A DNA stretch of 64,000 bases from Hymenobacter busanensis (GTDB lineage Bacteria > Bacteroidota > Bacteroidia > Cytophagales > Hymenobacteraceae), in contig NZ_VTWU01000006.1 of assembly GCF_008727865.1 (NCBI RefSeq), forward strand, positions 124,001-188,000, in the 5' to 3' direction. A program made the position numbers and the translations under genes. The notes under the pieces are model-generated. The model had not been told where the DNA came from. It made no database searches and saw only the letters and a list, made by a program, of their open reading frames with translations. This document shows, piece after piece, positions 12,689 to 15,602 of the stretch (position 1 is its first letter; each line of letters starts with the position of its first letter).

Positions 12689-13473
12689 CTAGGAGTGTTT
12701 CCTTCAAAGATAACAGCCGACGCGCCCGGTTTTCGGCGGCGGTCGGTGGCCCATAGCCAAGCGTAGTACGCCAGTCCCGCCACGCAGGCCCACTGAATGG
12801 CCGTCAGCCCCAGGCCCGGCAGCGGCGGGGTAGGCTTGATGGACTCCGCCCACAGCCGAAACAGCAGGTACGCCACCATCAGCAGCCGAAAACGCCAGCC
12901 GTCGGGCAACGGCCGGCGGCGCTCGGTCAGCCAGAGGGCGGCGACCAGCAGTAGCCAGAACCCGATTTCGTAGAGGTTGGTGGGGTGGCGCGGCACGCCG
13001 TCGCCGAAGTCAATGGCCCAGGGCAGCGCGGTGGCAGTACCGAAGGTGCCGTCGTCGAGGCCGGAGAGAAAACAACCGATTCGTCCCAGCACCATGCCCA
13101 GAATCAGCGGGTACACCATCAGGTCGCCCGACGACGCGGTGACGCCGAGCCGATTTTTGGTCAGCTCCACGCCTATCAAACCGCCGAGCAGGCCACCGAC
13201 GATGGTTTTGTTGGTGAAGTAGTAGAGCCAGCCGCCGGGCGGGTGCAACAGCTCGTGCGGGTGTTCCAGCAGCCCGAGCAGGCGCGACCCCAGCAAGGCA
13301 CCGGCGGCCGCGCCCACAAAAATCCAGAGGCGGTGCTCGGTGCTGATGCGGTCGGCGGCGTGCTGACGCAGGTGCGTGTAGAGGCGGTAGCCGAGCGAGT
13401 AGGCCAGCACCTCAAAGAGCAAATGCACCGGCAGCGTGAGCGGCCCGAGGGAAAGTTGAACGGGAAACGTCAA
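12685..13473 (-). CDS. Divergent Lgt-like (prolipoprotein diacylglyceryl transferase family) membrane protein
   Basis: 262 residues with seven or so membrane helices. Family landmarks remain: GPLTLP at the N-terminus, GRIGCFLSG in place of the Lgt GRxGNFxNG (keeping the equivalent of E. coli Arg143), LPWAIDFG, and RHPTNLYE for RHPSQLYE. Residues important in true Lgt are missing: the His of the H-G-G motif is replaced (TIVGGLLGG), and the EFFRxPD loop reads AESIKPTP, changing Arg to Lys. It is therefore unlikely to be the housekeeping Lgt. It starts an apparent operon with the secreted protein and the radical SAM enzyme, and a lipid-transferring role is inferred. Confidence 0.8.
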   Translation of the reverse strand: MTFPVQLSLGPLTLPVHLLFEVLAYSLGYRLYTHLRQHAADRISTEHRLWIFVGAAAGALLGSRLLGLLEHPHELLHPPGGWLYYFTNKTIVGGLLGGLIGVELTKNRLGVTASSGDLMVYPLILGMVLGRIGCFLSGLDDGTFGTATALPWAIDFGDGVPRHPTNLYEIGFWLLLVAALWLTERRRPLPDGWRFRLLMVAYLLFRLWAESIKPTPPLPGLGLTAIQWACVAGLAYYAWLWATDRRRKPGASAVIFEGNTPS

Positions 13474-13485
13474 ATGGCGGCGGGT

Positions 13486-13516
13486 TGGCGCCGGGCGCGA
13501 GGGGCGCCCGGCGCCA
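13486..13516 (-). terminator. GC-rich hairpin after phhA, without T tract
   Basis: A perfect 13-bp stem (TGGCGCCGGGCGC with its complement) closes a 5-base loop between phhA and the Lgt-like gene. There is no run of T after it on the minus strand, so it may be a partial terminator or an mRNA-stabilising hairpin. Confidence 0.5.
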
Positions 13517-13521
13517 TCAAG

Positions 13522-14271
13522 TTAGTCGGCCGATTCGGTCAGGCAAGCGGCCTGGCGCAGCTGTCGTTGCACGGCAGGCAGCGTGGGCAGCAGTTGCTCG
13601 AAGGAGTCGAGCACGAAGTAAGTGGTCTGGAACACGTCTTTGCGGAAAGCCGTGTCGAGCACCTGGGCTATGTCGAACGGCTGGCGCGTGGGCTCGGGAC
13701 CGAGGCTGTAACGGGTTTCGCCGGCCGACGACAGGATGCCCGCGCCGTAGATGCGCGCCGCGCCGCTGCCGGCGTCACGAATCAGGCCAAACTCCACCGT
13801 GAACCAGTACAGCCGGGCCAGCAGCTCCGCGGCTCCGGCATCGGAGGCGTGCAGCGTGCCGATGTGGCCGAGCTGGTGCAGGAAGCGGCAAAAGCTGAGG
13901 TTGGTGAGCAAGGGCACGTGGCCGAACACGTCGTGAAACATGTCGGGTTCTTCGAGGTAGTCCAGCTCGGAAAGCTTGCGCAGCCACGTGGTAGCGGGGA
14001 ATTTGCGGGCGGCCAGCAAGCCGAAGAACACGGCGTCGTCGACGATGCCGGGCACAGCCACCAACTCCCAGCCCGTGAGCCGGCGCAACACCTGGTTGGT
14101 CTGGCGGAAATCGGGGATGCGGTCGGCCGTGAAGCCGATGCGGGCCAAGCCTTCCATAAACTCGGGCGCCGCTCGACCGGGCAGGGCCTGGAGTTGGCGT
14201 TCGAACAAGAGCTGCCATACGTGGCGGTCTTCGGCGGTGTACTGGTCGTAGTGTTGTTGCAGAGCGTTCAT
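13522..14271 (-). CDS. phhA: Phenylalanine 4-hydroxylase (aromatic amino acid hydroxylase)
   Basis: Start at ATG 14271 (MNALQQHYDQY); 249 residues, the usual length of bacterial monomeric enzymes without a regulatory domain. The non-haem iron ligands are visible as H113 and H118 in EPDMFHDVFGH and E160 in LYWFTVEFGL. PGIVDD and GAGILSSAGE are further family landmarks. It converts phenylalanine to tyrosine with O2 and tetrahydropterin in the cytoplasm. It is preceded on the same strand by a leader peptide and terminator arranged as an attenuator, which should make its expression respond to tyrosyl-tRNA charging. Confidence 0.95.
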   Translation of the reverse strand: MNALQQHYDQYTAEDRHVWQLLFERQLQALPGRAAPEFMEGLARIGFTADRIPDFRQTNQVLRRLTGWELVAVPGIVDDAVFFGLLAARKFPATTWLRKLSELDYLEEPDMFHDVFGHVPLLTNLSFCRFLHQLGHIGTLHASDAGAAELLARLYWFTVEFGLIRDAGSGAARIYGAGILSSAGETRYSLGPEPTRQPFDIAQVLDTAFRKDVFQTTYFVLDSFEQLLPTLPAVQRQLRQAACLTESAD

Positions 14272-14301
14272 GGTGGTTCGCATTGGGGTTGGGAGAAAAC
14301 G

Positions 14302-14332
14302 AAAAAGCCCCATTCCGGAATCGGAATGGGGC
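14302..14332 (-). terminator. Attenuator terminator in the phhA leader
   Basis: On the minus strand the stem GCCCCATTCC/GGAATGGGGC with loop GATTCC is followed directly by TTTTTCGTTTTC. It lies between the stop codon of the leader peptide (14359) and the phhA start (14271), where an attenuator terminator belongs. Confidence 0.85.
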
Positions 14333-14358
14333 GAGTATGAGTCGGTTCTTCGGAGACG

Positions 14359-14463
14359 TTAGGGAGTCTGCTCAGGTGCCGTCGCGCATACACGACCGAT
14401 GCCGAAGCCGGAGGGCTGGCAGGTCGGGTAATAATAATAGAACGACTGGCGGAAGCGGGACAT
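14359..14463 (-). CDS. phhA leader peptide (34 residues, FYYYY)
   Basis: A short frame begins ATG 14463 (MSRFRQSFYYYYP) and ends at TAA 14359. Codons 8-12 are TTC-TAT-TAT-TAT-TAC, one Phe and four consecutive Tyr, a run typical of amino acid attenuator leaders. Right after the Tyr codons, segment 1 (CGACCTGCC, 14426-14418) pairs with segment 2 (GGCATCGGTCG, 14403-14393). Segment 2 (GGTCGTGTATG, 14397-14387) can instead pair 9 of 11 bases with CATACTCGCCC (14339-14329), which includes the foot of the terminator stem. CATCTTTG ends 4 bases before the ATG, suggesting a leaderless transcript. Ribosome stalling at Tyr codons would favour read-through into phhA. Confidence 0.82.
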   Translation of the reverse strand: MSRFRQSFYYYYPTCQPSGFGIGRVCATAPEQTP

Positions 14464-14467
14464 GCGG

Positions 14468-14475
14468 CAAAGATG
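14468..14475 (-). promoter_or_regulatory. Putative -7 element of the phhA attenuator transcript
   Basis: CATCTTTG on the minus strand matches seven of eight positions of TAnnTTTG, four bases before the leader ATG. No convincing TTG was found at the normal distance, so this is tentative. Confidence 0.4.
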
Positions 14476-14561
14476 GTGATTTTTGGCTGATAGTTAATAG
14501 CTATTGGCCATCGGATGTGAGCCAACAGCTAGCAGCCATCAGCTCATAGCTTTCAGCTGCC

Positions 14562-15602
14562 TCAAGCCGGGTAGGCCGGGTGGTTGCCCAGCTCGTTGTT
14601 CTGCTTTTCGGCTTTGCGGGTGAGGGCGGTTAGCCAGGAGCGCGTCACATCCGATTCGCTCTGGTAGCCGCGCTGGCGCACGTTGCCCAGGTCGCCGGCG
14701 TGGTCGGGCAGGGCGCGGTTGATCCAGCTCAGGGCGTTGATGGTGGTGCCCGGCGCCAGGCCATGCGCCAACGACAGCAGCTTGGCGGGCAGCCCCAGAA
14801 TCAGCTCGGCGTCGCCGCGGCGGCAGGCGTTCCAGATGCTGCGGGCGGCGTATTCGGCGCTGACGGTGAGCCCCGGCAACGAGTCGGCAATCATAAACCA
14901 GCCGAACTCCTTCTCGTGCTGGCCCTTCACCACGGCCTGGCGGGCCGAGCCGGTGCGCATCAGGCCGGGGCACACGGTGGTTACGTGCACGCCGTAGCGC
15001 AGCATTTCGGAGCGAAACCCTTCGGAGAGGCCCACGAGGGCAAATTTGCTGGCGCAGTAGGGCGCCATGTGCGGCACGGCCACTTTGCCGCCGAGCGAGG
15101 CCACGTTTACGATGCGGCCTTCGCGGCGGCTCATCATGTCGGGCAATACGGCGTGCATGGCGTGCAGCGGCGCCCAGAAGTGCGTATTCATCGACTCCTG
15201 GTAGTCGCGCTCTTCCATGTGCTCGAGCGGGCCGCCGGTAATGATGCCGGCGTTGTTGATCAGCACATCCACTGGCCCGAAAGCCTGCTTGACTTCGGCC
15301 ACGAGGGTGCGCACTTCCGTTTCGCTGGTCAGGTCGCGGGCCAGGGCCAGCACCTCGGCGCCGTCGGCGGCCAGCTCTTGGCGGGCGCGCTCCAGTTCGT
15401 CGGCGTCGCGGGCGCAAATGGCCACGCGGGCGCCCTCGGCCACGGCCTGGCGGGCCAGCACCAGCCCGAGGCCGCGCGAGCCGCCGGTGATGAGAACGAC
15501 GCGGCCGCTAAGGCGGTAGGAACCGCGGCGCGACGACCAGAGCGCGGCCGCCACGGCGGCCAAGCCAGCCGCAGCCAGCCAGGAAGTGCGGGTGTGCTTC
15601 AT
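14562..15602 (-). CDS. Short-chain dehydrogenase/reductase with N-terminal membrane anchor
   Basis: 346 residues. An N-terminal hydrophobic segment (WLAAAGLAAVAAALW) probably anchors it to the membrane. The Rossmann domain shows the SDR cofactor motif TGGSRGLG (~40), the NNAG motif (~115), the catalytic Ser in VNVASLGG and the Tyr-x3-Lys motif YCASK. A C-terminal tail of about 90 residues is longer than in minimal SDRs. Substrate unknown; membrane-anchored SDRs of this shape often act on lipids or retinoid-like compounds, but nothing in the sequence proves that here. It is divergent from the Spy-like gene at 15800 and upstream of the phhA leader. Confidence 0.85.
   Translation of the reverse strand: MKHTRTSWLAAAGLAAVAAALWSSRRGSYRLSGRVVLITGGSRGLGLVLARQAVAEGARVAICARDADELERARQELAADGAEVLALARDLTSETEVRTLVAEVKQAFGPVDVLINNAGIITGGPLEHMEERDYQESMNTHFWAPLHAMHAVLPDMMSRREGRIVNVASLGGKVAVPHMAPYCASKFALVGLSEGFRSEMLRYGVHVTTVCPGLMRTGSARQAVVKGQHEKEFGWFMIADSLPGLTVSAEYAARSIWNACRRGDAELILGLPAKLLSLAHGLAPGTTINALSWINRALPDHAGDLGNVRQRGYQSESDVTRSWLTALTRKAEKQNNELGNHPAYPA

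Follow-up and report, generated by a model that had tools for sequence, protein, structure and literature searches.

In Hymenobacter busanensis, phhA1, which encodes a phenylalanine 4-hydroxylase, is very probably controlled by a ribosome-mediated transcription attenuator sensing charged tRNA-Tyr. The gene lies on the minus strand (13522..14271) of the window, the whole stretch of 64,000 nucleotides that was analysed, and its product belongs to the biopterin-dependent aromatic amino acid hydroxylases (PF00351, E=3.9e-45), the ATG at 14271 being its most likely start. This reading draws on the parts of the switch, their conservation, the way they are arranged in folding models and the association of the gene with loss of the standard tyrosine pathway. 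Judged from sequence comparison and modeling, this is a real and widely conserved candidate tyrosine-sensing attenuator with a coherent physiological role. While the class of mechanism is known, the sensed amino acid, the target and the lineage appear to be new.

Upstream of phhA1, a leader ORF of 34 codons (14359..14463, minus strand; ATG at 14463, stop at 14361-14359) encodes the peptide MSRFRQSFYYYYPTCQPSGFGIGRVCATAPEQTP. As described in the initial annotation, codons 8-12 of this frame read Phe-Tyr-Tyr-Tyr-Tyr (TTC TAT TAT TAT TAC). The leader contains several codons for Tyr, the amino acid expected from the family assignment of the gene, and Tyr codons 9-12 (TAT TAT TAT TAC; 14428..14439, minus strand) are the putative sensor. 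Four nucleotides before the leader ATG, a -7 promoter-like box, CATCTTTG (14468..14475, minus strand), differs by one mismatch from TAnnTTTG, the Bacteroidetes -7 promoter consensus. The same position is occupied by CATCTTTG, CATCTTTA or CATATTTA in 9/9 genus-level leaders, and an exact TAnnTTTG box is found a few bases before the leader ATG in 44 of 90 leaders. From these motifs, leaderless initiation at or next to the leader AUG is plausible.

Between the leader ORF and phhA1 lies an intrinsic terminator, GCCCCATTCCG-ATTC-CGGAATGGGGC followed by a T tract (14302..14332, minus strand), whose stem (14332-14307) comprises 11 pairs. The terminator scan confirmed that this hairpin sits just before phhA1, and it is the sole terminator-like site on the minus strand within 13000-15500, the scan alone being not significant (two sites on both strands of this interval versus 1.8 expected by chance). 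In an alignment of nine genus-level sequences, namely those of eight genus genomes and of Hymenobacter gummosus, which came from another search, 100% of the terminator cells are paired and two pairs are compensatory, with three pair types each. The terminator hence covaries within the genus.

Two other helices are predicted on the same strand. In the protector (1:2) helix (14389..14430), 14430-14414 pairs with 14409-14389, the first strand taking in the last Tyr codon. The antiterminator is predicted to join a 5' strand (14385..14404), which includes GGTCGTGTATG, to a 3' strand (14322..14341), which carries CATACTCGCCCCATTCCG and contains the 5' arm of the terminator. The pairing segments proposed at the outset, CGACCTGCC with GGCATCGGTCG and GGTCGTGTATG with CATACTCGCCC, were found at the positions initially proposed for them. 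Among the nine sequences, 12 of 16 protector pairs are invariant and 89.6% of cells are paired; for the antiterminator, 12 of 15 pairs are invariant and 91.8% of cells are paired between strands, one pair failing in 8/9 sequences and another in 3/9. Neither helix shows covariation beyond shuffles in this alignment. Since both hardly vary, genus-level covariation is uninformative for them, and their near-invariance is compatible with constraint.

The leader and the terminator precede phhA1 in 8/8 genus genomes searched (leader examples: MHLFSQSYYYYYPTCQPTGFGNGRVCTTASEQTL and MLTRFSSRYYYRSCQPTGFGSGRVCATAPEQTT), while the ATG, the in-frame Tyr run and the stop are present in all nine genus-level sequences. 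The run spans three to five codons and changes by whole codons. Outside it, protein-level conservation of the leader was not found, with 74 nonsynonymous versus 11 synonymous codon differences against the window. As the rest of the peptide is unconserved, support for its coding nature comes from the start, the stop, the in-frame length changes and the Tyr run, and not from dN/dS. Of the FYYYY run named in the initial annotation, the sensed residue is Tyr, the Phe that heads the run being private to the window and absent from the run in the other eight sequences. A leader responding to aromatic amino acids in general, or to Phe, the substrate of the enzyme, would account for this residue, and relatives carry pheA leaders in which Phe and Tyr codons are mixed. 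With a Phe private to the window, and with leaders of other clades having only Tyr in common, this explanation is very unlikely, and Phe sensing was rejected in favor of a sensor for Tyr.

Beyond the genus, a fixed rule (an ORF of 10-80 codons with at least three Tyr in eight, followed by a terminator within 90 nt) was applied to 150 phhA loci, the closest relatives of the window protein, made up of 8 genus loci, 22 further loci that the family search gave, 80 belonging to named genomes and another 40 that were fetched, ten pairs being duplicate sequences. The Tyr cluster and terminator were found by this rule at 101 of the 150 loci, or at 92 of the 140 with distinct upstream sequence. No match occurred in any of five dinucleotide-shuffled sets of 150, nor at the 28 loci of the paralogue phhA2, and among 79 other long ORFs of the window a single one satisfied the rule, with a poor and unconvincing terminator. 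A Tyr leader with its terminator precedes phhA in Hymenobacter, Pontibacter, Fulvivirga, Marivirga, Roseivirga and Echinicola. The leaders of these clades, exemplified by MTRFTSRYYAYAYYAPQGSGAAAACRNQE (Hymenobacter), ...CYRAAYYCYGYYYRC... (Pontibacter), MTNMNSKYYYYYYYRITPFGVGVVCS (Fulvivirga), MNFTHNTYYYYYQAPKGIGNGSVMHMM (Marivirga) and MKNQIAQYHSYYYHYFPVKD (Echinicola), have only in-frame Tyr codons in common, with runs such as YYYYYYY in Fulvivirga and YYAYAYY in Hymenobacter. In the class-level search, a hydroxylase match was obtained in 67 of 247 genomes. Among 29 of these loci looked at (L193-L221, where L214 is a phhA2 locus already in the set, and L194 and L198 resemble L087 and L106, respectively), 10 carry a Tyr leader and a terminator, and nine of these ten belong to genomes labelled as the same class, not the same order.

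The rule missed 49 of the 150 loci. At 29 of them no terminator was found within 620 nt, and 11, of which three overlap with these 29, have a short Algoriphagus-type leader (MNPTPRTYVHHSYHLLR type) with one or two Tyr. Two other loci (L109 and L130) do possess a Tyr leader and a terminator and fail on distance alone. With these limits, the conservation of the Tyr run and of the pairing segments in Hymenobacter and other Cytophagales, which the initial annotation had named as a check of its reading, is borne out. Algoriphagus-type phhA loci (e.g., L078, L083, L095, L104 and L111) form a pattern of their own, with a very conserved 17-residue leader, MNPTPRT[YF][VI]HHS.., containing one to three Tyr and adjacent His; several have a terminator after the leader, and several a DAHP synthase-like gene upstream.

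These data also bear on a simpler account, in which the terminator merely ends the transcript of the SDR gene upstream, the Tyr-rich ORF is due to chance and the phhA promoter lies downstream. In the window, 98 nt separate the end of the SDR gene from the leader, and gene-end terminators are common. However, while an SDR gene end lies upstream of the leader in five of the nine genus-level loci, the leader and the terminator persist in the other four (L003, L006, L007 and L039), where no SDR end was found within 700 upstream bases. The arrangement is also present in other families with unrelated upstream genes, it never arose from the shuffles, and only 35 nt separate the terminator stem from the phhA1 ATG in the window. 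This account is therefore extremely unlikely, a chance ORF with a plain gene-end terminator being rejected on the basis of conservation and shuffles.

Under the attenuator model, transcription would start at or next to the leader AUG. When charged tRNA-Tyr is ample, the ribosome would clear the Tyr run and proceed to the stop codon, where it would mask the 5' strand of the antiterminator, unless the upstream protector holds that strand instead. With this strand blocked, the terminator would form and phhA1 would be left untranscribed. When charged tRNA-Tyr is scarce, the ribosome would stall on the Tyr codons and cover the protector strand, freeing the downstream antiterminator strand to pair with the 5' arm of the terminator. 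PhhA1 would then be made and would convert Phe to Tyr.

For 90 distinct leader-to-terminator sequences, this scheme was modeled with a ribosome set on each codon in turn, the RNA being freed 13 nt beyond the first base of the A-site codon and the readout being the pairing of the terminator 5' arm with upstream RNA. On average, sequestration of the arm peaks at 0.71 (sd 0.08) with the ribosome on the last Tyr codon and declines to 0.43 three codons and 0.25 five codons further on; it amounts to 0.25 when the A site holds the stop codon and 0.42 without ribosome. The average for the Tyr codons (0.66) is higher than at the stop in 88/90 leaders and higher than without ribosome in 79/90. For the window, the values at the four successive Tyr codons are 0.07, 0.29, 0.33 and 0.69, compared with 0.07 at the stop and 0.13 without ribosome; as strong sequestration of the arm is confined to a stall at the last of these codons, this codon matters most. 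An antiterminator excluding the terminator is thus available upon stalling in silico, in the window strongly so only at this position.

The antiterminator duplex averages -18.4 kcal/mol with its own terminator arm versus -12.6 kcal/mol with the arms of other clades. The own arm is better than a swapped one in 85/90 leaders, the gain being nil for g5 (three leaders) and small for 20 leaders of other clades. From clade to clade the helices change in sequence, with complementarity mostly retained. When the spacer is shuffled, sequestration drops from 0.71 to 0.47, only 28 of the 90 loci exceeding all 20 of their shuffles. Together, the stall scan and the arm swaps indicate that, as in classical attenuation, the position of the Tyr run is such that a stall there opens the antiterminator. 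The protector is the less uniform element: without ribosome it is clear in the window (0.13), and ribosome-free sequestration ranges from 0.13 to 0.39 in the eight genus leaders. Many leaders of Hymenobacter and Pontibacter form the antiterminator already with the ribosome upstream of the Tyr run or absent. The protector step is consequently weak in these leaders, and it is the ribosome at the stop codon, rather than the protector helix, which would have to cause termination there. Conservation and folding models thus support the tyrosine-sensing attenuation initially proposed, in which a stall for want of charged tRNA-Tyr would favor the antiterminator and phhA expression in vivo.

The RNA from the Tyr run to the terminator is highly conserved within the genus, as might be expected if a ligand-binding riboswitch, or a sensor based on nascent-peptide arrest, controlled the same terminator. 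Nevertheless, at the gathering threshold no Rfam family other than a tRNA was matched in the window, leader peptides across clades share no sequence beyond their Tyr codons, and the helices vary in sequence by clade while mostly keeping their complementarity, so that the probability of either alternative to a tRNA-Tyr-responsive attenuator is close to negligible. At a relaxed threshold (E<=1), six loci gave eight Rfam matches, all far below the family thresholds and none to a T-box. Two of them overlap the leader region, a viral CRE model (L017) and an Enterococcus sRNA model (L067), and look like chance matches. Rfam leader families (Phe_leader, Trp_leader and similar) gave no covariance-model match at the leader, and a known RNA family, including the T-box riboswitch, was rejected on the same ground.

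The initial annotation had considered it unusual that a usually catabolic enzyme should be controlled by its product. This logic is not odd when the distribution of tyrA is considered. Of 204 family genomes, 40 have no prephenate dehydrogenase (PF02153) match or only one below the cut-off, and tyrA is lacking in 37 of the 93 which carry phhA1, compared with 3 of the 111 which do not, these three being one 78%-complete genome and two genomes of another genus. With shared ancestry ignored, the Fisher p value is 4e-9 (no match) or 5e-11 (no or weak match). The trend appears separately in each of three genera: when weak tyrA matches are taken as lacking, the counts for phhA1-bearing versus other genomes are 8/40 versus 1/80 in g4, 2/3 versus 0/13 in g5 and 23/42 versus 0/8 in g6. 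Here, phhA1 was called present by a best E up to 2.2e-80 and tyrA absent by subtraction from the PF02153 results; the weak tyrA match of genome G023 was taken to be over the cut-off from the number of genomes over it (164/204), which changes 4/111 to 3/111. Two genomes of genus g3 of the family (G016 and G017), given as 100% complete, have neither a hydroxylase nor a tyrA match and may be Tyr auxotrophs or use another Tyr route.

Within the genus, no match to TyrA, its neighboring aminotransferase or prephenate dehydratase was found in the genome of the window (G000) or in G003, G004 and G007, except for one PF02153 match under the cut-off in G004 (E=6e-4). All eight genus genomes have both chorismate synthase and pterin carbinolamine dehydratase. 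With neither tyrA nor pheA found, the window organism has no visible Phe route, and Tyr, if made, would come from Phe via PhhA; possibly, all four organisms are Phe auxotrophs which make Tyr from Phe. A catabolic role of PhhA is also possible, since HPD is present in all eight genus genomes and a weak hmgA-like match, under the cut-off, occurs in all eight. In several Cytophagales phhA lies downstream of DAHP synthase, tyrA or trpA: at 15 of 22 hand-picked loci, the upstream gene is DAHP synthase-like (11), tyrA-like (1) or trpA-like (3), one call of each kind being checked by Pfam. In this lineage phhA1 looks like a Tyr-biosynthetic gene. In its available text, GapMind (PMC7311316) proposes PAH as a Tyr-biosynthetic enzyme in Dyella, Legionella and Echinicola, the same role as for phhA1, and reports mutant-fitness evidence that PAH serves Echinicola vietnamensis as a second route to Tyr; that text describes no attenuator, and its fitness data agree with a Tyr-biosynthetic phhA1. 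Two other Echinicola species (L073 and L117) carry a Tyr leader before phhA.

An internal check of this logic is provided by the pheA operons. In the four tyrA-bearing genus members, two tandem leaders, each with its own terminator, precede a pheA-aminotransferase-tyrA operon, as in G006 where MLTSQAQYFFSYYFYYAHA is followed by MLRTARFFYGFYYFFYRKKRGPVCAV. Among 24 fetched pheA-region stretches, 13 have both leaders (L222-L225, from G005, G006, G001 and G002, L226, L228, L230-L234, L239 and L245), one has a single leader and ten have none, some of the latter perhaps because the guessed place missed the start of the operon. A terminator was called after both leaders in 11 of the 13 tandem regions; in L230 and L239, that of one leader was uncalled, though a G+C-rich repeat and a T run are visible. 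The downstream genes tested from other genera encode prephenate dehydratase (3/3). The pheA operon leaders are rich in Phe and Tyr codons, and the phhA leaders in Tyr codons, so that in each case the leader codons match the products of the operon or gene (Phe and Tyr versus Tyr only), which supports the proposed logic. The prephenate dehydratase match of G002 falls in two overlapping pieces in different frames (C13:32681-33198), a frameshift or an assembly error.

We give about even chances to a broader view, in which Bacteroidia possess an attenuation regulon for aromatic amino acids: phhA1 would be controlled by an attenuator with Tyr codons alone, and the pheA-aminotransferase-tyrA operon by two attenuators in tandem, both rich in Phe and Tyr. 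Lineages such as that of the window would have lost the entire operon, leaving PhhA1, fed by imported Phe as in animals, as the only visible source of Tyr, under the control of Tyr through the leader peptide of a leaderless transcript.

Ribosome-mediated attenuators of amino acid operons are well known from the trp, his and phe leaders of Proteobacteria. The phhA system resembles them by its short ORF in which codons for the product are clustered in a run, the terminator before the structural gene and the mutually exclusive antiterminator and protector. In contrast, it senses Tyr, controls a hydroxylase instead of a chorismate-branch enzyme and is found in Bacteroidota; its leader probably starts at the 5' end of the transcript, and its protector step is weak in several clades. 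In Gram-positive bacteria, Tyr genes are regulated by T-box elements, which also respond to tRNA-Tyr charging and control termination but bind the tRNA directly without a leader peptide, and the phhA leader has no T-box match. Among the papers listed, a review on E. coli and Corynebacterium (PMC11802643) is the only one with all of the terms phenylalanine hydroxylase, leader peptide and attenuat.

In the portions of the literature available, tyrosine genes are described under T-boxes elsewhere (PMC1262725), and attenuators are predicted for tyrA operons, with no leader codons given (PMC1173090). In the same phylum, clues to leader-peptide attenuation of amino acid operons, together with a conserved 5' element upstream of pheA, are described for Flavobacterium psychrophilum (PMC9723704); the words "tyrosine" and "phenylalanine" are absent from the main text of that article. 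Neither a Tyr-codon leader nor attenuation of a hydroxylase gene appears in the accessible text of PMC9723704, PMC7366714, PMC7311316, PMC2965389, PMC1173090, PMC1262725 and PMC4833913. A literature search likewise returned no Tyr-codon leader and no attenuation of phenylalanine hydroxylase, though the survey of Lopatovskaya and colleagues (2010) could hold a prior mention. If this negative result holds, the phhA1 leader would be the first described attenuator with a Tyr-codon leader, and one widespread in its class. The leader provides independent, regulatory evidence that a bacterial phenylalanine hydroxylase, usually called catabolic, is Tyr-biosynthetic in many Bacteroidota, helps to predict the true auxotrophs among genomes seemingly devoid of Tyr synthesis and offers a natural test of attenuation in bacteria largely without Shine-Dalgarno signals.

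All eight genus genomes searched contain two hydroxylases, and close homologs of phhA1 (84-88% identity) are present in the other 7/7. In a tree of 136 hydroxylases, the Tyr-leader rows stand apart from the eight phhA2 rows of the genus, 64 rows without a detected leader being left out of this count. Since the phhA2 rows form long branches nested among those of Hymenobacteraceae, the hydroxylases of L034-L036 group with Fulvivirga, apart from the rest of their family, and these 64 rows are uncounted, "phhA1" is a label by sequence similarity, orthology being not proven and no date of origin being claimed. L034-L036 (G199, G195 and G143) carry Tyr leaders despite this grouping, and a transfer which moved the gene and the switch together is possible. 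Another hydroxylase, from a record named Thalassovita sp., a proteobacterium (L091), groups with Bacteroidota sequences, and its contig is probably misbinned.

With no match to the fixed rule, phhA2 was rejected as another gene with a Tyr leader. A different conserved leader ORF, of the MMNQTAKCFCLNIRPVMDGVGPFCRYGS type and without a codon run, lies about 75-200 nt upstream of it (L009-L016 and L165-L184). A terminator was called in 25 of the 28 phhA2 loci, and in 24 of the 27 folded the terminator arm is mostly sequestered without ribosome, the predicted antiterminator being lost only after the ribosome passes approximately codon 16.
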